NCBI RefSeq assembly: GCF_029991245.1
Contig: NZ_JAIVFO010000036.1
Coordinates: 1 to 34,260, forward strand
Direction of reading: 5' to 3'
DNA: 34,260 nucleotides
DNA from: Xanthobacter autotrophicus
GTDB lineage: Bacteria > Pseudomonadota > Alphaproteobacteria > Rhizobiales > Xanthobacteraceae
Part shown: positions 18,634 to 32,036 of the stretch, piece by piece
Layout of the letters: the number at the start of each line of letters is the position of its first letter
Position numbering within the stretch: position 1 is the stretch's first letter
Translations under genes and position numbers: made by a program
Notes under the pieces: model-generated
Databases searched by the model: none
The model's input: the letters and a program-made list of their open reading frames with translations, nothing else
What the model was told of the DNA's origin: nothing

Positions 18634-19557
18634 TCAGTCGAGACCCAGCTTCCGGCAGACTTCGTCAAGCTGATCCAGGCTTGTATAGCGGATGCGCAAT
18701 GCGCCCGCTTCGCCCTTGCCTTCAATGTCCACACTGAGGCCCAGCACATCGGTGAGGCGCTTTTCCAGCGCCCGGCTGTCCGCGCTCTTGCGCTCCGGCG
18801 CGCCGCTCCTGCTCCCCTTCCCGGCCTGAGTGCTTCCCGCCTGGCCCTTGGCCGGCGCCGCATTGAGCACGGTGCGGGCCTTGGACAGGGCTTCCACATC
18901 ACGGACCGTCAGCCCCTTCTCCACCACATCCCTGGCCATGCGCTCGGGATCGGCGCAGGCGAGCAGCGCGCGGGCATGGCCGGCACTCAGGCGCCCATCG
19001 GTGAGATAGGTCTTCACCCCCGCCGGCAGCTTCAGCAGGCGCAGGGTGTTGGCGATGTGGCTGCGGCTCTTGCCGATGATGCGCGCCAGGTCGTTCTGGT
19101 TGTAGTCGAACTCCCCCATCAGGGATTCATAGCCCTGGGCCTCTTCCACCGGATTGAGGTCGGCGCGCTGCACGTTCTCGATGATGGCGACTTCCAGCGC
19201 CTCCCGGTCGGACAATTCCAGCACCACCACCGGCACCTCGTGCAGGGCCGCGCGCTGGGCCGCGCGCCAGCGCCGCTCGCCGGCGACGATCTCGAAGCTG
19301 TCGCTGCCGTTCAGCTGGCGCACCACGATGGGCTGGATGATGCCCTTCTCGCGGATGGAGGCGGTGAGGTCCTCCAGCCCCTCCTCCAGGAAGGTCCGGC
19401 GCGGATTGCGCGGATTGGGCCGCACATGCTCGATGGGCACCCGGCGCGGCCCGCCGCGCCCTGCCCCCGATCGCGCCGCCGGGGCCGCCTGAGGCTCCAT
19501 CTCCCCGATGAGCGCCGCAAGACCGCGGCCGAGCCGCGAGCGCTGTTCATCCGCCAT
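18634..19557 (-). CDS. parB: Chromosome-partitioning protein ParB
   Basis: CTP-dependent parS-binding clamp that spreads on origin-proximal DNA, recruits SMC and is moved by ParA. The 307-residue product has an N-terminal RLGRGLAALIG motif (8-18) for ParA contact and the CTPase/ParB-N domain with RPNPRNPRRTF (46-56) and GERRWRAA (93-100). ENVQRADLNPVEEAQGY (about 127-143), a helix-turn-helix near 154-176 (NDLARIIGKSRSHIANTLRLL), an Ala/Gly/Ser linker and a C-terminal dimerisation segment ending VCRKLGLD follow. The ATG at 19557 has AAGGGACGG upstream. It follows parA by 31 bases. Two parS-like sites lie upstream in the same operon. Confidence 0.97.
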   Translation of the reverse strand: MADEQRSRLGRGLAALIGEMEPQAAPAARSGAGRGGPRRVPIEHVRPNPRNPRRTFLEEGLEDLTASIREKGIIQPIVVRQLNGSDSFEIVAGERRWRAAQRAALHEVPVVVLELSDREALEVAIIENVQRADLNPVEEAQGYESLMGEFDYNQNDLARIIGKSRSHIANTLRLLKLPAGVKTYLTDGRLSAGHARALLACADPERMARDVVEKGLTVRDVEALSKARTVLNAAPAKGQAGSTQAGKGSRSGAPERKSADSRALEKRLTDVLGLSVDIEGKGEAGALRIRYTSLDQLDEVCRKLGLD

Positions 19558-19588
19558 GACCGTGTCCCGTCCCTTCAGCACGCGGCGA

Positions 19589-20437
19589 TCAGGCCGCAGC
19601 ATCCGCCCGCGCCGCGCGCTCGCGCTGGATCACCTCCGAGGCGAGGCGCAGATAAGCTTGTGATCCCACACACTTGAGATCGTAGAGCAGCACCGGCTTG
19701 CCATAGGACGGCGCCTCCGACACCCGCACATTGCGCGGGATCACCGTCTCATAGACCTTGTCGCCCATGAACTGGCGCACGTCCTGCACCACCTGTTCGG
19801 ACAGGTTGTTGCGGCCGTCATACATGGTCAGAACGATGCCGTGGATGGTCAGGGTCGGATTGAGACTGACGCGCACCTGCTCCACCGTCTTCAGCAGCTG
19901 CGACAGGCCTTCCAGCGCGAAGAACTCGCACTGCAGCGGAACCACGATGGCGTCGGCCGCCGCCATGGCATTCACCGTCAGCAGGGAGAGCGAGGGCGGG
20001 CAGTCCACCAGCACATAGGTGAAGCGAGGCCCGGCACTGTCCACCGCCAGCGCCTTCAGCGCGCTGCGCAGGCGGAAGGCGCGATCGCGCTCGGCCGCAA
20101 TCTCCAGCTCCAGGCCCGACAGATCGAGGGTGGAAGGCGCCACATAGAGCTGCGGCACGCCGGTCTCCATCACCGTCTCGCGCATGCTGGCCTCGCCGGT
20201 CAGCACGTCATAGGTGGAGAGGTTGCGGGAGCGGCGATCGATGCCGAGGCCGGTGGAGGCATTGCCTTGCGGGTCGAGATCCACCACCAGCACCGTCTCG
20301 CCGATGGCGGCAAGCGCCGTGCCCAGATTGATGGCCGTGGTGGTCTTGCCCACCCCGCCCTTCTGGTTGGCAAGCGCCAGCACGCGCGGCGCGGCGGGGG
20401 TGCCACCGGCGGGGGAAGGGGTCTGTTGATCGATCAT
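19589..20437 (-). CDS. parA: Chromosome-partitioning ATPase ParA
   Basis: MinD/ParA-family ATPase whose nucleoid gradient pulls ParB-parS complexes apart. The 282-residue product has the deviant Walker A KGGVGKTT (26-33, with the signature lysine in ANQKGG), Walker A' [11 protein letters not shown] (53-63), and Walker B-like [18 protein letters not shown]. The start is ATG at 20437, which overlaps the stop of rsmG (ATGA), so the two are probably translationally coupled; AAGG lies five bases upstream. This is the chromosomal (Soj-like) type, judged by the rsmG-parA-parB context. Confidence 0.97.
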
Positions 20438-21183
20438 GGCGCCTTCATCCTCGACGCGTCGCATTCGGGCGGCCCGCCACCGGCATCCGGCTCCCCGGGG
20501 GAGCGCGCGCCGGACTGGGGTTCGATGGTGTCGGTCCCGCGCCTGGCGCCCCTTACCAGGAGGATCCGGCCTTCGGGATCGCTCGTACTGGGGCGCAGGT
20601 CACAGTCGAGTGTCCAGCTTCTTGCCGCCTCGGTCAATTCTCGTTCCGCATCCCGACCCTTGGGAAAAAGGCCAATGGCCCCTGCGGCGAGGAACGGCGC
20701 GGCCAGATCCAGCAGTTTGGGCAAAGGCGCCAGCGCGCGGGCGGAGACCACATGGGTCCCCGGCGCCAAGGTTTGCGCCACCTGCTCTATGCGCGCGGCA
20801 TGAACGGTGACAGGCAGTTGCGCCACCCGTGCCGCCTCCCGCAGGAAGGCAGCCTTGCGGGTGTCGCTTTCCACAAGATGCATGTGGGCGCCGTCCCGCT
20901 CCGCCAGCACCGCCGCCACCACCAGGCCGGGAAATCCGCCGCCGGACCCCAGATCCACCCAGCGCAAGGTGGTTTGCGGAACATGGTGAACGAGCTGGAG
21001 CGAATCACCCACATGCCGGGTCCACAGGTCGGGCAGGGAGGCGGGGGCGACGAGGTTGATGGTCTTCTGCCACTTCACCAGCAGATCGGCGATGGTGGTG
21101 AGCCGGCCCAGTGTTTCACGTGAAACCACCGCCGCAACGGCCTCGCGCGCCGCGCTCCCGCTCTCCCGCTTGCCGCCCTTCAT
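20434..21183 (-). CDS. rsmG: 16S rRNA (guanine-527-N7)-methyltransferase RsmG (GidB)
   Basis: SAM-dependent methyltransferase of 16S rRNA G527. The 249-residue product has NLVAP (43-47), RHVGDSL (56-62), the SAM-binding [12 protein letters not shown] (75-86), [17 protein letters not shown] (motif II region) and [12 protein letters not shown]. The ATG at 21183 was chosen because AGGGA lies just upstream; a GTG at 21222 would add 13 residues. About 30 C-terminal residues beyond the usual end are Pro/Gly/Glu-rich and overlap the parA start. The coding sequence near VVSRET (about 19-24) contains a 15/16 parS match. It follows mnmG by about 50 bases. Confidence 0.94.
21112..21127. promoter_or_regulatory. 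parS: parS-like site inside rsmG
   Basis: TGTTTCACGTGAAACC differs from the bacterial parS consensus TGTTTCACGTGAAACA only at the last base. It lies in coding sequence for VSRET of RsmG and is probably a second ParB nucleation site. The peptide VSRET is compatible with keeping such a site in the gene. Confidence 0.75.
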
Positions 21184-21232
21184 CGGGTCCCTCGCTCCGC
21201 CGCCGCTATCCCCATGATCCACAGGCGAGCCA

Positions 21233-23107
21233 TCAACAGCCTGCCCCGGCCCGCCGCGCGTGGGTGGCGAGAAGCGCCAGCGCCGCCGGGGTCATGCCCT
21301 CCATGCGCCCCGCCTGCCCCACCGTGCGCGGGCGAATGCGGGCGAGCTTCTGCTTCAGCTCGTTGGAGAGGCCCGGCAGGTCCGCGTAAGGCAGGTCCTC
21401 CGGCAGGCTCAGTTGCTCGTCCCGGCGCAGCATGGAAATGTCCGCCGCCTGCCGGTTGAGATAGACGGCGTACTTGGCATCGATCTCCACCTGCTCGGCC
21501 ACGGCCGTGTCGAGCCCAGCCAGTTCCGGCCAGATGGCGCCGAGGCGCGCCATGTCGATATCCGGATAGGCCAGGAGATCGAAGGCCGTGCGCCGCTGGC
21601 CATCGCGATTGACGCTGAGGCCGTGCCGCGCGCCTTCCGTAGGCGTCAGGCTGAGGCTTTCCGCCAGCGCCCGCGCTTCTTCCAGCGCCGCCGCGCGGCG
21701 GGCGAAATGGGCGGAGCGCTCGGCGCCCACGAGGCCGAGAGCTTCGCCGCGCCGGGTCAGGCGCTGGTCCGCATTGTCGGCCCGGAGCGTCAGCCGATAT
21801 TCGGCGCGGGAGGTGAACATGCGATAGGGCTCGCTCACCCCGCGGGTAACGAGATCGTCCACCATCACCCCGAGATAGGCTTCCGCCCGGTCGAACACCG
21901 TCCCGTCCGCCCCGCCGGCGCGCCGCGCCGCGTTGAGGCCGGCGAGCAGCCCCTGGGCGGCGGCTTCCTCATAGCCCGTGGTGCCGTTGATCTGGCCGGC
22001 GAGGAACAGGCCGGCCACGCGCTTGGCCTCCAGGGTGGGGGCGAGTTCGCGCGGGTCCACATGGTCGTATTCGATGGCGTAGCCCGGCCGCAGCACCGCC
22101 ACCTGCTCCAGCCCCGGAATGGTGCGCAGGAAGGCGGTCTGCACCTCGGCGGGCAGGGAGGTGGACAGGCCGTTGGGATAGACGGTGGGATCGTCCAGCC
22201 CCTCCGGCTCCAGGAAGATCTGGTGGCCGTCGCGATCGCCGAAGCGGACGATCTTGTCCTCGATGGACGGGCAATAGCGCGGGCCGCTGCTCTCGATACG
22301 GCCAGAATACATGGCCGAGCGGTTAAGGTTGGCCCGGATCAGCGCGTGGGTGGCATCCGTGGTGCGGGTGATGCCGCATTCCACCTGCGGGTTGGGCAGC
22401 CGCGTGGTGAGGGCCGAGAACGGCTCGGGCGGATCATCGCCGGGCTGCATCTCCAGGCTCGCCCAATGGATGGTGCGGCCATCGAGGCGCGCCGGCGTGC
22501 CGGTCTTCAGCCGGCCCAGCGCGAAGCCGAGGCGGGCGAGGGCAGGGGAGAGGCCCAGCGCCGGCTTCTCGCCCATGCGCCCGGCCGGATAGCTCACCTC
22601 GCCCATATGGATGAGGCCGTTGAGAAAGGTGCCGGTGGTGAGCACCACCGCGCCGCAGGACAGGTCCCGCCCGTCGGCAAGGCGGACGCCGATGATGCGG
22701 CCGGCGGCGACCAGCAGGTCGTCCGCCTCGCCCTCCACGATGGTGAGGCCATCCTGCGTGGCCAGGGCCGCCTGCATGGCGCGGGCATAGAGCTTGCGGT
22801 CGGCCTGGGCACGGGGGCCGCGCACGGCGGGACCCTTGCGGCGGTTGAGCACGCGGAACTGGATGCCGCCCTGGTCCGCCACCCGACCCATGAGGCCGTC
22901 CAGCGCATCGATCTCCCGCACCAGATGGCCCTTGCCCAGCCCGCCGATGGCGGGATTGCAGGACATGGCGCCGATGGTGGCGCGGAAATGGGTGAGCAGC
23001 GCCGTGCGCGCGCCGGTGCGCGCGGACGCGGCGGCGGCCTCGCATCCCGCGTGGCCACCGCCCACCACGATCACGTCGAAGGCATTCGCTGAAAGGGTTT
23101 CGGTCAT
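21233..23107 (-). CDS. mnmG: tRNA uridine 5-carboxymethylaminomethyl modification enzyme MnmG (GidA)
   Basis: FAD-dependent partner of MnmE that modifies wobble U34 in certain tRNAs. The 624-residue product has the N-terminal dinucleotide-binding motif [14 protein letters not shown] (about 12-25) and the family signatures [24 protein letters not shown] and [13 protein letters not shown]. It also carries a Gly-Thr-Phe-Leu-Asn-Gly patch, [17 protein letters not shown] and a helical C-terminal domain ending in a typical [15 protein letters not shown]. The length agrees with the family (about 620-630). The first two ATGs (23113 and 23107) are two codons apart and I cannot separate them; 23107 (MTETL) matches common starts better. 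It follows mnmE after about 120 bases that contain a perfect parS. Confidence 0.95.
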
Positions 23108-23190
23108 TCTCATCCGGGGCAGAAAGGCGGCCCGCGCCGCCCCTTCTGGAAACGCCCTCTTTCCGGCGCCGTCAAGGCCGCAACCCGCGA

Positions 23191-23206
23191 TGTTTCACGT
23201 GAAACA
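23191..23206. promoter_or_regulatory. parS: Perfect parS centromere site between mnmE and mnmG
   Basis: TGTTTCACGTGAAACA is an exact match to the 16-bp parS consensus. The dyad extends two bases further on each side (23189-23208). It lies in the short mnmE-mnmG gap, about 3.6 kb upstream of the parB start and about 7.5 kb from the candidate origin, as expected for the ParB loading centre of the chromosome. Confidence 0.95.
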
Positions 23207-23227
23207 TCCTCCGGGGTAGGGCGGCGC

Positions 23228-24523
23228 CTATTTCCCGATGCAGAAGGTGCTGAAAAGGGCGTCCAGAACGTCCTCCACATCCACCCGGCCGATGAGCTGG
23301 TCCAGCGCCCGCACCGCCAGGCGCACGTCCTCGGCCCGCAATTCCTCATGGCCGCCGAAGTCGCCAATGGCGCGTTCCAGATGGAGCGTGGCCACCTCCA
23401 GCGCCCGCCGCTGGCGCTCCCGGGTGATGAGCGCCGGCTCGCGCCCGCCCAGATGGTCCGCCTCCCGTTCCAGCCGGCCGATGAGGGCGTCCACGCCCGC
23501 GCCGGTGGCGGCGGAAATGCCCATCCAGCCTTCGGGAACGGTGTCGTCCTGGTCGATCTTGGTGCGCACCTTCACCGCGTGGGCAAGCGCTGGGGGCGGC
23601 TGCAAGCCGGTATCGCAGAGCCAGAGCACCACATCCGCCCCCTCGGCCCGCGCCAGCGCGCGACGCACGCCTTCGGCTTCCACAAGATCGGAGGTCTCAC
23701 GCAGGCCGGCGGTGTCCAAGAGGGTCACGGCCTGTCCGGCCAGCTCCAGATGCACTTCCAGCACGTCCCTTGTGGTGCCAGGCAGGGCGGAGACGATGGC
23801 CGCCTCGCGCCCCGCAAGGCGGTTCAGCAAGGTGGATTTGCCGGCATTGGGCGGGCCGGAAATGGCCACCACCAGCCCGTCCCGCACCCGCTCGCCCCGT
23901 GCCGCATCGGTGAGCGCGGCAAACAGCTCGTCCTTCAGCCGGGCAAGGAGGGCGATGGCATCCGTCGTGACCTCTCCGGACACATCACTCTCATCGGAAA
24001 AATCGATGCCGGCCTCGATCAGAGCCAGGGCAGAGACCAGCCCCATGCGCCAGCCCTCCACCCGGCGGGAGAGGGCGCCCGAGGCCAGCGCCAGTGCCTG
24101 CCGGCGCTGGGCCTCGCTCTCCGCCGCCACGAGATCGGCCAGGCCCTCCACCTCCGCCAGATCCAGCTTGCCGTTGGCGTGGGCGCGGCGGGTGAACTCG
24201 CCCGCTTCTGCCGGTCGCAGGCCGGGCAGGGCGGCCAGCGCCCGCACCACCGCCGCCACCACCGCACGGCCGCCATGGAGATGAAGCTCGGCCACATCCT
24301 CTCCCGTGGCGCTGTTGGGCCCGGGGAAGAACAGGATGAGGCCCCGGTCCAGCATCTCCCCGGTCCGGGGATCATTCAGCGCGCCGTAGCGGGCGACGCG
24401 GGGCGGGGGCAGCACGCCGGCAAGGGCGAGGACAGCCGCCGCCGCCGCGGGACCGCTGATGCGCAGCACCGCCACACCGGCCGGCAGGCGGCCCGACGAG
24501 AGGGCGAAGAGGGTGTCGGTCAT
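23228..24523 (-). CDS. mnmE: tRNA modification GTPase MnmE (TrmE)
   Basis: GTPase that works with MnmG on tRNA U34. The 431-residue product starts MTDTLFALSSGRLPAGVAVLRISGP, the typical MnmE beginning. It carries the folate-binding N-domain with AEAGEFTRRAHANGKLDLAEVEGLADL (about 105-131), a G domain with P-loop GPPNAGKST (223-231), PGTTRD (248-253) and DTAG (270-273), and the C-terminal CIGK with its conserved Cys (C428). The frame stays open far upstream under the divergent gene, but the ATG at 24523 is where family similarity begins. A ribosome-binding site is weak. It is slightly shorter than E. coli MnmE (454). Confidence 0.95.
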   Translation of the reverse strand: MTDTLFALSSGRLPAGVAVLRISGPAAAAAVLALAGVLPPPRVARYGALNDPRTGEMLDRGLILFFPGPNSATGEDVAELHLHGGRAVVAAVVRALAALPGLRPAEAGEFTRRAHANGKLDLAEVEGLADLVAAESEAQRRQALALASGALSRRVEGWRMGLVSALALIEAGIDFSDESDVSGEVTTDAIALLARLKDELFAALTDAARGERVRDGLVVAISGPPNAGKSTLLNRLAGREAAIVSALPGTTRDVLEVHLELAGQAVTLLDTAGLRETSDLVEAEGVRRALARAEGADVVLWLCDTGLQPPPALAHAVKVRTKIDQDDTVPEGWMGISAATGAGVDALIGRLEREADHLGGREPALITRERQRRALEVATLHLERAIGDFGGHEELRAEDVRLAVRALDQLIGRVDVEDVLDALFSTFCIGK

Positions 24524-26859: not shown

Positions 26860-27582
26860 TCAGCTGCCCGTCTTCTCCGCGGGCGGCGCATCAGCGTATT
26901 TCAGCCAGAGCGCCTTCTCACCCATGCCGGCGACGAAGGCCGCATGGGCTTCCGCTTCGGCAGCGGTCAGGCGCGGGGCGAGCGGCACGGGACGGGGATG
27001 GGCGGCCCGGGCGGCGACCACCAGCCGCGGCGCCTCGCTCGTATCCTCCACCAGGCCGATGAGGCTCGCCTGCTTGCCGCCGAGCAGCTCGCCATAGACC
27101 TCGGCCAGAAGCTCGGCATCCAGCAGCGCGCCGTGCTTCACCCGGCGCGAGCTGTCGATGCCGTAGCGGTTCATCAGGTCATCGAGGCGATTGCCGCCGC
27201 CGGGATGCTTGCGCCGCGCCAGCGCCAGGGTGTCCACCACCCGGTCGCGGGCGATCGCCGGCCGGCCGAGGCGGTCCAGCTCCGCATTGAGGAAGCCGAT
27301 GTCGAACGCCGCGTTGTGAATCACCAAAGTATCTTCAGCGATGAAATTCAGGAATTCGTCGGCAACATCCTTGAATTTCGGCTTGTCCGACAAGAATTCG
27401 GCAGACAGGCCGTGGACGTTGAAGGCCTCCACCGGCATGTCGCGCTCGGGATTGATATAGACGTGGAACACCGTGCCGGTGAGGATGCGGTTGACCATCT
27501 CCACGCAGCCGATCTCCACCAGCCGGTCGCCGCCATAGGCTTCAAGGCCGGTGGTCTCGGTATCGAGCACGATCTCGCGCAA
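26860..27582 (-). CDS. dnaQ: DNA polymerase III epsilon subunit (3'-5' proofreading exonuclease)
   Basis: Proofreading exonuclease of the replicative polymerase. The 240-residue product has ExoI DTETTG (D7, E9), ExoII HNAAFDIGFLN (D94) and ExoIII-epsilon HGALLDAELLAEVY (H150, D155). The C-terminal tail should hold the polymerase-binding part. The start is taken as TTG at 27582: GGGAGGGG lies five bases upstream and the family begins MREIVLDTETTG exactly there. The longer open frame to 27741 would overlap coaE and adds an unrelated Arg-rich sequence. It is the last gene of the ppsR-maf-aroE-coaE-dnaQ operon, 13 bases after coaE. Confidence 0.95.
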   Translation of the reverse strand: MREIVLDTETTGLEAYGGDRLVEIGCVEMVNRILTGTVFHVYINPERDMPVEAFNVHGLSAEFLSDKPKFKDVADEFLNFIAEDTLVIHNAAFDIGFLNAELDRLGRPAIARDRVVDTLALARRKHPGGGNRLDDLMNRYGIDSSRRVKHGALLDAELLAEVYGELLGGKQASLIGLVEDTSEAPRLVVAARAAHPRPVPLAPRLTAAEAEAHAAFVAGMGEKALWLKYADAPPAEKTGS

Positions 27583-27595
27583 GGTGTCCCCTCCC

Positions 27596-28198
27596 TCAGC
27601 CGGCCACGCGGCGCCCCGGTCCCGACAGCGCCCGCACGATGCCGGCCACCTGATGGGCCGCCGCCGCGAAACCCCGGCCGGTGTCGATGACGAAATGCGC
27701 GCGCCGGCGCTTTTCGGCATCCGGCATCTGCTTGCCCACAATGGCCTCGAATTTTTCTTCCGTCATGCCGGCCCGCTCCAGCACCCTGGCACGCTGCACA
27801 GCTTTCGGCGCGCTGACCACAGCGACCGCATCGACGCGTCCGGTACCGCCCGTCTCGAACAGCAGCGGAATGTCCAGGACCACCAGCCGCGCCCCCGCCG
27901 CCTGAGCCTTCGCGAGGAAGGCTTCTTCCTCGGCCCGGACCAGGGGATGAACGATGGCTTCCAATCGCTTCATGGCCTCGGAGTCCGCCAGCACCCGCGC
28001 TCCCAATGCAGCGCGATCGATGGCACCGTCCCGCGTTACCCCGGGAAAGGCAGCCTCCACCGGCGCCACCGCTGCCCCGCGATAAAGCCCATGCACGGCC
28101 GCATCCGCATCATGCACCGGCACCCCCATGGCCCGGAACAGGCGCGCCGTAGCCGACTTGCCCATGCCGATGGAGCCGGTGAGACCGAGGACCCACAT
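27596..28198 (-). CDS. coaE: Dephospho-CoA kinase CoaE
   Basis: Last step of coenzyme A synthesis: ATP-dependent phosphorylation of the 3'-hydroxyl of dephospho-CoA. The 200-residue product has the P-loop [11 protein letters not shown] (5-15), the HDADAAVH segment (29-36), [13 protein letters not shown] (the CoA-domain patch) and [37 protein letters not shown], the typical lid and C-terminal region. Start ATG is 28198, three bases after the aroE stop, so co-translation is likely. Confidence 0.96.
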
Positions 28199-28201
28199 GG
28201 C

Positions 28202-29050
28202 TTACGCCTCCAGCTGGCCCATGGCCCTGAGATCGGAAATCAGCAGGTCGCGCAGCTCGGCGGTGACCTCGGGCCGCATGCCGAACCAGCGTTCAAAACC
28301 GGGTACGCCCTGGTGCAGCAGCATGCCGAGCCCATCCACCGTGCGAAATCCCCGCTCCGCCGCCGTCTTCAGCAACGGGGTGATCAGCGGCACATAGACG
28401 ATGTCGCTCACCACCGCCTCAGGCTTGAGGTGGGACAGATCCACGGTGAGCGGCGCCGCGCCCTTCATGCCGAGCGAGGTGCAATTCACCAGAATATCGG
28501 CATCCGCCATCACGTCGGCCGCCTTGTCGAAGGCCAGGGGAACCACTTTCGCGCCGAACGCGGCGGCGATGACCTCGGCCCGTCCCAGCGTGCGATTGGC
28601 CAGCACCACCCGTTCGAACCCGCGCTGCACCAGCGCATGGACGATGGCCCGGGATGCTCCGCCCGCGCCCAGCACCAGGGCCAGCTTTTGCTCCCCATCC
28701 CAACCCGGAACGGTGGCATCCAGATTGGCGATGAAGCCATAACCGTCGGTGCTCGCGCCATATAGCCGGCCGTCTTCAAGCCAAAGCGTGTTGGCCGAGC
28801 CCAGGATCACCGCGCTCTCGTCCGCCTCGTCGAGGACGGAGAAGGCGATCTCCTTGTTGGGCGCCGTCACGTTGCAGCCGGCATAGCCGCGCGCCGCAAG
28901 GCTGCGGTAGAAATCGGCCGCCTGCGCCGGAGGCACCTCCTCGCGGCCATAGTCCCCGTCGATCCCGTAGGCCTTCAGCCAATAGCCATGGAGCAGCGGA
29001 GAGCGGGAATAACTGACCGGCGAGCCCGTGATGCACACCCGCACCGTCAC
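28202..29050 (-). CDS. aroE: Shikimate dehydrogenase (NADP+) AroE
   Basis: Reduces 3-dehydroshikimate to shikimate in aromatic amino-acid synthesis. The 282-residue product has the shikimate-binding SRSPLLHG (15-22), the catalytic Lys in NVTAPNKE (K66), Asp of STDGYG (D102), the NADP-binding GAGGAS (128-133) with NRT (152-154), and C-terminal DGLGMLLHQG. The start is GTG at 29050, overlapping the maf stop as GTGA, so translation is probably coupled. The gene order maf-aroE-coaE-dnaQ is widely conserved in Alphaproteobacteria. Confidence 0.96.
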   Translation of the reverse strand: MTVRVCITGSPVSYSRSPLLHGYWLKAYGIDGDYGREEVPPAQAADFYRSLAARGYAGCNVTAPNKEIAFSVLDEADESAVILGSANTLWLEDGRLYGASTDGYGFIANLDATVPGWDGEQKLALVLGAGGASRAIVHALVQRGFERVVLANRTLGRAEVIAAAFGAKVVPLAFDKAADVMADADILVNCTSLGMKGAAPLTVDLSHLKPEAVVSDIVYVPLITPLLKTAAERGFRTVDGLGMLLHQGVPGFERWFGMRPEVTAELRDLLISDLRAMGQLEA

Positions 29051-29652
29051 GGAAGAAGCCCCTGTTCCCGGAAGAAGGGCAGCAGCTGCAGCAGCGGCAG
29101 GCCGAGGATGGTGAAATGGTCCCCGTCCACCCGGGTGAACAGGTGCACGCCCACCGATTCCAGCTGGTAGGCACCCACGGAGGTGAGCACCCGCGGCCCG
29201 GCCGCGGTGATGTAGGTGTTCAGTGCCTCGTCGCTCAAGGGCCGCATGGTGAGAAAGGCGCTGACCACCGTCTCGAACAGGATCTCGCCATCGCGCGCCA
29301 CCGCCACCGCCGAATGCAGCGCATGGGTCTGGCCCGCAAGCTCCTGAAGCTGCAGGCGTGCTGCTTCGATGCTGACCGGCTTGTGGTAGATCTTCGGCCC
29401 CAGCGCCAGCGTCTGGTCCGCGCCCAGCACCAGGCGCCCAGGCGCGGCGCGCGATCCGGCAAGGGCCTTCGCCCGGGACAGGATCACGGCGATGCCGGCG
29501 GGATCCACCGCGCCGGCATCGGCCTGGATGGAGCGTTCGTCCACCTCGGCAGCCACCGTTTCCACCGGCACGCCCGCATGCACGAGAAGGGTCAGGCGCG
29601 TCGCGCTCTTGGATGCCAGGACGAGCGGCTGTTCATCACGCCACACGAGCAT
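29047..29652 (-). CDS. maf: Maf-family nucleotide pyrophosphatase
   Basis: House-cleaning enzyme that hydrolyses non-canonical or modified nucleoside triphosphates. The 201-residue product has the family motif ASKSATR (13-19), the catalytic-region Asp in GADQTLA (D79) and KPVS (91-94). GAYQLESVGVHLFTRVDGDHFTILGLPLLQLL follows near the C-terminus. Which of the Maf subgroups (dTTP/UTP or 7-methyl-GTP) it belongs to is not clear; its place before aroE is usual for alphaproteobacterial Maf. The ATG at 29652 has GAGGGAG immediately upstream; a longer frame to 29724 is not supported. Confidence 0.93.
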   Translation of the reverse strand: MLVWRDEQPLVLASKSATRLTLLVHAGVPVETVAAEVDERSIQADAGAVDPAGIAVILSRAKALAGSRAAPGRLVLGADQTLALGPKIYHKPVSIEAARLQLQELAGQTHALHSAVAVARDGEILFETVVSAFLTMRPLSDEALNTYITAAGPRVLTSVGAYQLESVGVHLFTRVDGDHFTILGLPLLQLLPFFREQGLLP

Positions 29653-29800
29653 ATCTCCCTCTGCTGCCGCACTCCGGCCGGGGCCGATGCCTGTGGGTTT
29701 CTCCCAAAGCCGGCCGGGGTGCAAGCTGTGCTCTCGTCTCAGACCGCGCGGCGCTTGAGCTTAGCCAATTGGCATCGGTCAACGACCGAGACCGATGGTC

Positions 29801-30652
29801 TCAGGTCTCGGCGATGGCCCGGCGCCGGCGCTCGCTGTAGAGCGCGTAGATGGTCGCTGCGGTTTCTTCCACCGAGCGGCGGGTGACGTCGATGAGCGGC
29901 CAGCCATTGCGGGCGCACAGGCGCCGCGACAGGATGATCTCCTCGTTCACCGCCTCGCGATTGACATAGGATGCACCAAGATCGGCAGCGTTGAGCCCCA
30001 GAAGACGGTTCTGGCGAATCTCCACGATACGCTCCGGGCTTGCCACCAGGCCGACCACAAGCGGCTTCTTCAGCTTCTCGACGCCGGGCGGCAGGGGCAC
30101 GCCGGGCACCAGCGGGATGTTGGCGGTCTTGATGCCGCGATTGGCGAGATAGATGGAAGTGGGCGTCTTGGAGGTGCGGGACACGCCGAGCAGCACCACG
30201 TCGGCGCTTTCCAGATCGTCCGTCATGTGCCCGTCGTCGTGCATGACGGTGTAGTTCAACGCATCGATGCGCTTGAAATAATTGGCGTCCAGCGAGTGCT
30301 GCCCGCCCACGCGTGGGGTCGGGCTGCCGCCGAGATAGGACTGGAACAGCTGCACCACCGGCGCCAGCACCGACATGTAGGGCACGCCCAGCTCGCGGCA
30401 GCGCTCTTTCAGCCGCTCGCGGATCTCCTTGTCCACCAGCGTGTAGAGCACGATGCCGGGATTGCTCTCCACCTCGTTCAGCACGCGTTCGAGCTGCTTC
30501 ATGGAGCGGATGAGCGGATAGACGTGCTCGATGGGCAGCACGTTCGCATATTGCGCACAGGCCGCCCGCCCCACATTGATGAGGGTCTCGCCCGTGGCAT
30601 CGGAAACGAGATGCAGGTGAAAGTAACTCTCGCCGGGCGTTTTCGGATTCAC
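29801..30652 (-). CDS. ppsR: Pyruvate,phosphate dikinase / PEP synthetase regulatory protein (PSRP, DUF299)
   Basis: Bifunctional serine/threonine kinase and phosphorylase that switches PEP synthetase or pyruvate,phosphate dikinase off and on. The 283-residue product has an N-terminal [13 protein letters not shown] (12-24), [35 protein letters not shown] with the ADP-binding P-loop (156-166), NIPLVP and the C-terminal [13 protein letters not shown]. The start is taken as GTG at 30652: it begins the family match and has AGGAG and GGTGGA just upstream. This is the homologue of Rickettsia RP001, which with hemE flanks the origin in several Alphaproteobacteria. It leads the maf-aroE-coaE-dnaQ operon. 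Confidence 0.93.
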
Positions 30653-30818
30653 AATTATCCACCGCTCCTGTGGAACACTGTTGAAAAAGGCACGCCCGGT
30701 GGCGGGGTGCAAGTGTGGGCTCTGGATAACCCTGAAATCCATCCACACCCAGACCGTGCGGGACAGAATCCGGGAGCCCCCTGTGCGTCCATGTGGACAC
30801 CGTTCCGGGACCACCGCG

Positions 30819-30834
30819 TTAATCCTTTGTTAAC
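30819..30834. promoter_or_regulatory. CtrA box 1 in the candidate origin
   Basis: TTAATCCTTTGTTAAC matches the CtrA consensus TTAA-N7-TTAAC exactly. CtrA is the cell-cycle response regulator that, in Caulobacter, binds such sites in Cori and blocks replication initiation. Confidence 0.75.
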
Positions 30835-30922
30835 CGGCCTTTCGCCGGCTTCGCACCTGCGGCAAGTGCGCCTTCAGGACAGGGGATGCCTGTGGATCGG
30901 TTGTCGAGGGTCGCTCACATCG

Positions 30923-30937
30923 TTAATCAACCGTTAA
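30923..30937. promoter_or_regulatory. CtrA box 2, overlapping the hemE promoter
   Basis: TTAATCAACCGTTAA is a second exact TTAA-N7-TTAA. Its right half is also the candidate -35 of hemE, so CtrA binding should affect hemE transcription as well as the origin. Two of the GANTC sites (30938 and 30947) follow directly. Confidence 0.72.
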
Positions 30938-30963
30938 GACTCCAAAGACTCTCTCTCTATAAA
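30934..30963 (+). promoter_or_regulatory. Candidate hemE promoter
   Basis: TTAAGA (30934-30939) and TATAAA (30958-30963), with an 18-base spacer, are the best sigma70-like pair. They would give a leader of about 20 bases before the hemE ATG. In Caulobacter a promoter of this type lies inside Cori and is repressed by CtrA; the same layout is visible here. Confidence 0.5.
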
Positions 30964-30989
30964 AGATTCTATTAGATTGAAGGGACGGG

Positions 30990-32036
30990 ATGAACCGCGC
31001 TCTCGAGACACGATCCCCCTTCCTGCGGGTGCTCGACGGCACCCCGCTTGATCCCCCGCCGCTCTGGATGATGCGGCAGGCGGGGCGCTATCTTCCGGAA
31101 TATCGCGCTGTGCGGGCTGAGGCCGGTGACTTCCTCACCCTGTGCTACACGCCGAAGCTCGCCGCCGAGGTGACCTTGCAGCCGATCCGTCGCTACGGAT
31201 TTGATGCGGCCATCATCTTTTCGGACATTCTGGTGGTGCCCCATGCTCTCGGGGTCGGCCTCACCTTCGAGGCCGGAGAAGGTCCGCGGCTGACGCCGGT
31301 GACGGACCGGGAAGGTGTCGCCGCCCTGAAGGACCACCTTGATCGCGACAAGGTGGACCCGGTCTACGAGGCCATCGCCATGGTGCGCGCCACGCTTCCC
31401 GCCGAAGTGGCGCTGATCGGCTTCTGCGGCGCGCCGTGGACGGTCGCCACCTACATGGTGGCGGGGCAGGGCACCGACGACCAGGCTCCCGCCCGCATGC
31501 TGGCCCTGCGCGACGAAGCCCTGTTCCAGAGCCTCATCGACCGGCTGGTGGAAGCCTCCATCGTCCATCTGTCGGGGCAGGTGGCGGCGGGTGCCGACGT
31601 GGTTCAGATCTTCGACACCTGGGCTGGCGTGCTTGATCCCGTGTCCTTCGAGCGTTGGTGCGCCGAACCTCTGCGCCGTATCGTCGCGGGGCTGAAGGCC
31701 ATGCACCCCCACGTGCGGGTCATCGCTTTTCCGAAGGGGGCGACGCTGGAAGCGCTGGAACGGCTCGCCGATACCGGCATCCATGCCATCGGCCTCGACT
31801 GGGCGGCGGATCGCCTGGCGGCGCGGCGACGGCTTTCCGGCCGTGTGGCGCTCCAGGGCAATCTGGATCCGCTGCGGCTCATTGTCGGCGGGCCGGCTCT
31901 GGAGGAGGAAGTGGCGCGCATCCGCGAGGATTTTTCCGGCGCGCGGCACATCTTCAATCTCGGCCACGGCATCCGCCCTGAAACCCCGCTCGCCCATGTG
32001 GAGAAGCTGGTGGAAGCGGTGCGGCGGGCGCGCTGA
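30990..32036 (+). CDS. hemE: Uroporphyrinogen III decarboxylase HemE
   Basis: Cytoplasmic heme-pathway enzyme converting uroporphyrinogen III to coproporphyrinogen III. The 348-residue product shows the N-terminal signature PPLWMMRQAGRYLPEYR (22-38; R29 and R33 for substrate carboxylates) and the catalytic-region Asp in IIFSDILV (D79). FCGAPWTVATYMVAGQG is the second signature, and the C-terminal part has GHGIRPETPLAHVEKLV. The ATG at 30990 has AAGGGA upstream. It is followed by hemJ after 22 bases, so two heme-synthesis steps are co-transcribed beside the candidate origin. Confidence 0.96.
   Translation: MNRALETRSPFLRVLDGTPLDPPPLWMMRQAGRYLPEYRAVRAEAGDFLTLCYTPKLAAEVTLQPIRRYGFDAAIIFSDILVVPHALGVGLTFEAGEGPRLTPVTDREGVAALKDHLDRDKVDPVYEAIAMVRATLPAEVALIGFCGAPWTVATYMVAGQGTDDQAPARMLALRDEALFQSLIDRLVEASIVHLSGQVAAGADVVQIFDTWAGVLDPVSFERWCAEPLRRIVAGLKAMHPHVRVIAFPKGATLEALERLADTGIHAIGLDWAADRLAARRRLSGRVALQGNLDPLRLIVGGPALEEEVARIREDFSGARHIFNLGHGIRPETPLAHVEKLVEAVRRAR

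Follow-up and report, generated by a model that had tools for sequence, protein, structure and literature searches.

Sinorhizobium meliloti and Brucella belong to the same order as Xanthobacter, Hyphomonas neptunium lies outside that order, and the chromosomal oriC of S. meliloti adjoins hemE. The hemE-COG1806 rule for origins dates from Caulobacter and Rickettsia (PMC1914354). The Caulobacter crescentus origin, Cori, is described as a 404-bp stretch flanked by hemE and CC0001 (COG1806), with an A+T content of 43.6% compared with 32.8% for the genome (PMC1914354), and as holding weak DnaA boxes, CtrA sites of the form TTAA-N7-TTAA and an A+T-rich element, with parS about 8 kb away (PMC1914354, PMC4468827). 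In Caulobacter, CtrA is reported to close the weak DnaA boxes to DnaA, and IHF to be able to displace CtrA (PMC4468827, PMC4285127). Mutation of the CtrA sites in Cori is described as having changed replication only mildly (PMC4468827), so the presence of CtrA sites need not imply strong control.

Published accounts disagree on whether CtrA is a general feature of such origins. A review states that CtrA sites have not been seen in alphaproteobacterial origins except in Caulobacter and possibly Rickettsia (PMC4468827), whereas another paper predicts DnaA, CtrA and IHF sites in origins that, like the locus described here, have hemE on one side; the number of CtrA sites ranges from none to seven across Wolbachia, Ehrlichia, Anaplasma and Rickettsia, with predictions in Wolbachia, Anaplasma, some Ehrlichia and Rickettsia (PMC1914354). 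A CtrA ChIP signal is also reported to adjoin the origin of H. neptunium (PMC7200025), a setting comparable with the predicted CtrA sites of our locus. In contrast, the S. meliloti oriC is stated to be without CtrA motifs and unbound by CtrA (PMC4433202), and CtrA of Brucella abortus is reported not to bind the origin.

The 2008 genome paper on Azorhizobium caulinodans used GC skew, the gene cluster and KOPS to locate the origin, and the legend of its Figure 2A includes X. autotrophicus (PMC2443382). Its origin section is a prediction made without experiment and mentions neither CtrA nor DnaA sites (PMC2443382). The origin location is thus already predicted for this clade and is not new, and the location of the gap described here confirms the known rule for alphaproteobacterial origins. 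What matters more is a pair of predicted CtrA sites within it, whose layout appears to be a clade-specific and apparently unreported part of a known origin type; in our literature search, which had most subscription journals outside its reach, none of the best matches listed described CtrA sites at the origin of Xanthobacter or Azorhizobium.

Gene neighbourhood of the ppsR-hemE gap

The DNA analysed here (the window, 34,260 bp) is one entire contig (C295) of a 4.96-Mb draft genome of Xanthobacter autotrophicus in 495 contigs. The interval 30653-30989 (337 bp) is the gap that separates the divergent genes ppsR and hemE. The genes and sites that define its neighbourhood are as follows.

29801..30652, minus strand: ppsR, COG1806/RP001 type, PF03618 match at 29849-30616, putative GTG start at 30652
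30990..32036, plus strand: hemE, uroporphyrinogen decarboxylase, TIGR01464, scoring 395.6 bits where the cut-off is 303
29047..29724, minus strand: maf-like gene, family match below the curated cut-offs
28202..29050, minus strand: aroE, curated cut-off passed
27596..28198, minus strand: coaE, curated cut-off passed
26860..27741, minus strand: dnaQ open frame, curated cut-off passed
19589..20464, minus strand: parA-type ATPase, family match below the curated cut-offs
18634..19602, minus strand: parB, domain cut-off passed
23191..23206: parS, exact, 7.4 kb from the gap
21112..21127: parS, one mismatch, 9.5 kb from the gap

The order outward from ppsR is the maf-like gene, aroE, coaE, dnaQ, a trmE-type gene, gidA, gidB (both gid genes passing curated cut-offs), the parA-type gene and parB, and the hemE side carries a UPF0093 gene and rho. 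The dnaQ family match starts at residue 55, so the true start of that gene probably lies inside the open frame. The original prediction had placed a probable Caulobacter-type origin at exactly this interval, with hemE on one side, ppsR with maf, aroE, coaE and dnaQ on the other, and parS about 7.5 kb off. The family matches bear out the gene context; both ends of the gap agree with the gene starts, that of ppsR being the putative GTG; and the exact parS lies at very nearly the distance given. When the whole genome was searched for parS with up to two mismatches, one extra copy was found, with two mismatches, on a different contig. The dnaA gene is located on a separate contig (C454) and not beside the gap. 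An Rfam scan of the window at the gathering threshold returned no RNA, and neither promoters nor terminators turned up when 30600-31000 was scanned for them by a simple method.

This arrangement is widespread among relatives. From 96 relatives with ppsR we examined 49, chosen by match score, genus and low contig number, and 42 of these keep the divergent ppsR-gap-hemE arrangement. Two of the seven exceptions run off contigs (G067 and G069), and in the other five (G018, G036, G037, G038 and G053) hemE was not found beside ppsR. Upstream of ppsR in these five (loci L056, L021, L025, L057 and L065, respectively) we observed between four and seven DnaA-like boxes where about one is expected (1.5 in G053), and this persistence of boxes without hemE suggests that the origin stays with ppsR. 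All 12 relatives searched have at least one parS (up to one mismatch) no more than 15 kb from ppsR; in one of them, G051, just one of four one-mismatch copies does so.

Predicted elements within the gap

The elements predicted within the gap, in order from the ppsR side, are listed below.

30655..30663, plus strand: DnaA-like box TTATCCACC, one mismatch, four of nine positions kept in at least 24 of 26 genomes
30669..30677, minus strand: DnaA-like box TGTTCCACA, two mismatches, CTGTGGA core conserved
30679..30687, minus strand: weak DnaA-like box TTTTCAACA, two mismatches
30721..30729, minus strand: DnaA-like box TTATCCAGA, one mismatch, poorly conserved (two of nine positions)
30739..30747, plus strand: DnaA-like box CCATCCACA, matching the Caulobacter DnaA consensus
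30766..30770: GANTC (GAATC), pattern match
30792..30800, minus strand: DnaA-like box GTGTCCACA, two mismatches
30819..30833, plus strand: predicted CtrA site 1, TTAATCCTTTGTTAA, exact in 21 of 26 clade genomes and with at most one half-site change in all 26
30891..30907, minus strand: DnaA box CGATCCACA (30891-30899) with conserved flank GGTTGTCG, the best conserved box, between the two CtrA sites
30923..30937, plus strand: predicted CtrA site 2, TTAATCAACCGTTAA, exact in 22 of 26 clade genomes and with at most one half-site change in all 26
30938..30942: GANTC (GACTC), pattern match
30943..30982: A+T-rich segment adjoining hemE, candidate unwinding element, lowest-stability 40-mer of the window
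30947..30951: GANTC (GACTC), placed 24 bp past the start of site 2 in each of the 26 genomes
30965..30969: GANTC (GATTC), pattern match

The claim that the gap holds DnaA-box-like nonamers on both strands stands up well against chance. Seven nonamers lie within two mismatches of TTATCCACA, compared with a mean of 0.64 in shuffled sequence, and none of 100 shuffles reached seven; outside the gap, no 337-bp stretch of the window holds more than three. There is no perfect TTATCCACA among these boxes. The GANTC sites that had been noted are also present, although their excess is modest when taken alone (four compared with 1.35 expected, with 4 of 100 shuffles getting to four). The A+T-rich segment claimed next to hemE proved to be the least stable 40-mer of the window.

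The predicted CtrA boxes were likewise found, as two exact copies of TTAA-N7-TTAA with no others in the window (shuffle mean 0.00). Genome-wide, this pattern occurs exactly 13 times, two of them in the gap, against six for a reversed control pattern, and the contig that carries the gap is the only one with two exact sites. The hemE start codon lies 171 bp past the start of site 1 and 67 bp past that of site 2. A CtrA protein is encoded in the genome (C81:1899-2570), with 82% identity to Caulobacter CtrA over query residues 1-224. We also considered IHF, for which the consensus is WATCARNNNNTTR. The gap holds no exact IHF match, and one-mismatch matches overlap both CtrA sites; site 2 (TTAATCAACCGTTAA) is one mismatch from this consensus and likewise from WATCAN5WTR.

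Set beside Cori, the gap has the same flanking gene types, a comparable length (337 bp compared with 404 bp), a similarly raised A+T content (0.44, compared with 0.32 for the window, the figure here being relative to the window and not to the whole genome as in Cori), weak DnaA boxes, TTAA-N7-TTAA sites, an A+T-rich element and a nearby parS. The differences lie in the number and arrangement of sites. Five CtrA sites are described for Cori compared with two here, and Cori is described as having two G-boxes (TGATCCACA) where the gap has only the variants CGATCCACA and CCATCCACA. Here, moreover, the CtrA sites form a pair at near-fixed spacing around one DnaA box. The description of the locus as a Caulobacter-type origin therefore holds for gene context and parts list, and not for the number and layout of the CtrA and DnaA sites.

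The CtrA pair across relatives

The pair of CtrA sites is present in the gap of all 26 genomes of the clade, which come from five genera (g1, 14 genomes; g2, two; g7, five; g14, three; g19, two), with at most one half-site change per site. The start-to-start spacing is 104 bp in 21 genomes, 105 bp in two, 102 bp in one and 93 bp in two; in A. caulinodans (G026), where the origin call falls in the same gene cluster and has KOPS support both in the genome paper (PMC2443382) and in our analysis, the pair is 105 bp apart. The two gaps with the short spacing are those of G014 and G060 (L293 and L295), where it is 11 bp under the usual 104 bp. We read 104 bp as about ten turns, and 93 bp as about nine turns, of 10.4 bp.

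The distances from the pair to the flanking genes, corrected for unaligned N-termini, were compared in the same 26 genomes. The distance between site 1 and ppsR is 161-197 bp. That between site 2 and hemE is 66-72 bp in 23 genomes, and 61, 94 and 97 bp in the other three. The position of site 2 is thus nearly as fixed relative to hemE as relative to site 1, so that a promoter role is conceivable. The sequence between the sites drifts, with a mean gapless identity of 0.61 and a minimum of 0.40 among the 21 genomes with 104-bp spacing, apart from a conserved island, TGTGGA-N-CGGTTGTCGA, made up of the DnaA box and its flank. Across the gap as a whole, 24 or more of the 26 genomes agree at 67 of the 102 positions that belong to named elements and at 44 of the 235 outside them, a contrast that is partly built in because the element borders were drawn after the genus alignment.

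When mapped on a 60-row tree of ppsR proteins, the CtrA pair needs one change and marks a single branch with support of 100/100; one locus, L187, was left out of the tree since its gap resembles those of G014 and G060. Among the 34 tree rows outside the clade, the 32 with gap or upstream DNA have no pair 90-108 bp apart. A scan of 391 genomes of the family with a loose form of the pair pattern gave 27 matches, 24 of them in the five genera, compared with 7 of 391 for a reversed control. The remaining three (G340, G352 and G357) were set aside because the DnaA-box block is absent from their first 80 letters, and look like chance matches. Two g14 genomes that the loose pattern missed also carry the pair. 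In the survey of relatives' loci, for which we used the 18 of 80 with divergent ppsR within 2.5 kb, isolated CtrA-like sites occur at different positions in some other relatives, so it is the pair, and not CtrA sites as such, that marks the clade.

Replichore polarity in relatives

Since our own genome, in 495 contigs, is too broken for whole-replicon skew, polarity was assessed in relatives. GC skew was set aside as the deciding test because it was too weak and partly contrary in the five relatives sampled in 20-kb pieces (G001, G003, G012, G026 and G079). Its best origin was not at the gap in three of the five: G003 had it at about 3.2 Mb, G001 at 0.16-0.20 Mb and G079 at 2.3 Mb. The score in G001 was marginally higher at dnaA than at the gap (0.0107 compared with 0.0102), that in G079 was negative at the gap, and an unbroken 400-kb stretch of G003 had its cumulative skew minimum at 2.638 Mb, 250 kb off the gap at 2.387 Mb. 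We therefore adopted the polarity of the FtsK-orienting octamer (KOPS), GGGCAGGG, which was the most polarised of all octamers when the gap was taken as the origin (162:50 in samples from four relatives).

In G001, placing the origin at the gap accounts for 82 of 87 genome-wide copies of the KOPS 10-mer GGGGCAGGGC, as many as any freely placed origin reached, compared with 79 for dnaA; the last minus-strand copy lies at 5,180,742 and the first plus-strand copy at 5,278,123, with the gap at 5,225,150. In G040 the sign changes around the gap, which fits 40 of 41 sites compared with 39 for dnaA, a margin of one site. For G026 the gap fits 89 and dnaA 85 among the 100 sites listed of 111, and in samples from that genome the best KOPS origin is 30-70 kb off the gap (85 compared with 77 of 123). 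Samples from G079 and G003 also favour the gap over dnaA (86 compared with 68 of 113, and 100 compared with 96 of 147, respectively). The sign change in G012 falls no more than 24.5 kb from the gap, between 2,040,998 and 2,065,459 (100 of 104 positions listed), and the overall fit of its samples is poor, with 65 of 126 sites for the gap, 64 for dnaA and 74 for the best origin at 3.26-3.30 Mb. Taken together, KOPS fits the gap better than dnaA in all six relatives scored, with small margins in five and no reversal, and is best or near-best at the gap in G001, G026, G040 and G079.

Some local departures from this pattern were also seen. In G012, both KOPS and GC skew over C1:0-1.9 Mb (0-1.86 Mb) run opposite to the direction that a gap origin would predict, and the sign turns from minus to plus a second time near dnaA; we read this misfit as a large inversion inside one replichore or a misassembly. 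The distance from dnaA to ppsR is 166-168 kb in G001 and G003 and about 2 Mb in G012. KOPS polarity also weakens toward the gap and is gone within 30 kb of it, with 15 sites pointing away and 31 toward it in four genomes (1:16 in G026 alone, and 14:15 without G026). The window itself has 10 copies pointing away and seven toward, and all six of those at 20413-24224 lose polarity or point toward the gap.

Discussion

The best explanation for these data is that the gap at 30653-30989 is, very probably, the chromosome origin. This prediction draws on features computed directly, namely the parts themselves, how far they exceed chance, how they are conserved and laid out, the 82% identity of the encoded CtrA and the replichore polarity of relatives, and from these we infer binding, unwinding, methylation and repression. 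DnaA-ATP would assemble on the weak boxes between 30655 and 30899, and this assembly would open the A+T-rich segment at 30943-30982 beside hemE. Phosphorylated CtrA dimers may sit at 30819 and 30923, about ten helical turns apart, where they would flank the DnaA box at 30891-30899 and border the unwinding segment; as in Caulobacter, they could thereby keep cells that are not replicating from initiating. The fixed GANTC at 30947 may, through its methylation, report whether the origin has been copied, and ParB bound to the parS sites 7.4 and 9.5 kb away would move the new origins apart.

Placing the origin at dnaA on contig C454 instead, with the gap serving only as a conserved regulatory region, is very improbable. 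The polarity change near dnaA in G012 and the ambiguity of GC skew, which marginally favours dnaA in G001, would speak for such an arrangement, but dnaA was rejected as the origin because its KOPS fit is lower in each of the six genomes scored, albeit by a single site in two of them (of 126 in G012 and of 41 in G040). In the relatives searched, parS is also close to ppsR, with dnaA at least about 90 kb away from it, save for scattered weak copies in G051, and the published origin call in A. caulinodans falls in the ppsR-hemE gene cluster (PMC2443382). If the gap is accepted as the origin, there is still the matter of what the CtrA-like pair does there. It is possible, though we think it doubtful, that the pair regulates only the transcription of hemE (and ppsR) and has no part in initiation. 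The distance from site 2 to hemE is nearly as constant as the spacing of the pair, a GANTC lies at a fixed distance past site 2, and CtrA of S. meliloti and Brucella is reported not to bind the origin, all of which would suit a promoter function. However, G031 and G112 keep the spacing of the pair even though their site 2 is shifted to 94-97 bp from hemE, site 1 starts as far as 171 bp before that gene, and the pair encloses the best conserved DnaA box. That the simple scan gave no sigma-70-type promoter also counts against a promoter function, but says little.

Site 2 might alternatively serve chiefly for IHF, or for both IHF and CtrA with CtrA binding secondary, a reading that we regard as unlikely. 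Within site 2, all 26 genomes share TTAATCAAC unchanged, and four of them differ in the right TTAA half; the site stands one mismatch from both forms of the IHF consensus, and an IHF site is reported to overlap a CtrA site in Caulobacter (PMC4285127). Against this, both exact half-sites are kept in 22 of 26 genomes, exact TTAA-N7-TTAA is very rare in the genome, and the presence of a second such site at fixed spacing would need an explanation of its own.

Returning to an origin at which CtrA acts on initiation, we tentatively suggest, with rather less than even confidence, that such control was gained once in the ancestor of the Xanthobacter/Azorhizobium clade, separately from Caulobacter. It would take the form of a two-site, same-face switch, ten turns apart (nine in one genus) around a DnaA box, with a CcrM site fixed beside the unwinding element. 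If this were true, a different layout would have reached the same control logic as that of Caulobacter. A strictly kept CtrA pair in a clade of the order that includes S. meliloti and Brucella makes it testable whether CtrA has been wired to the origin more than once, and also whether helical-turn spacing matters for the block.

A further observation concerns the parS region. An exact copy of the Caulobacter-type DnaA G-box TGATCCACA lies at 21215-21223 of the window, 103 bp from the second parS. In each of the four same-genus genomes compared (our own, G001, G003 and G012) one is kept at 84-103 bp from parS, and the 300 bp around the parS copies observed in G026 and G079 hold none. In Caulobacter, DnaA is said to act at the DnaA boxes of parS (PMC6399470).
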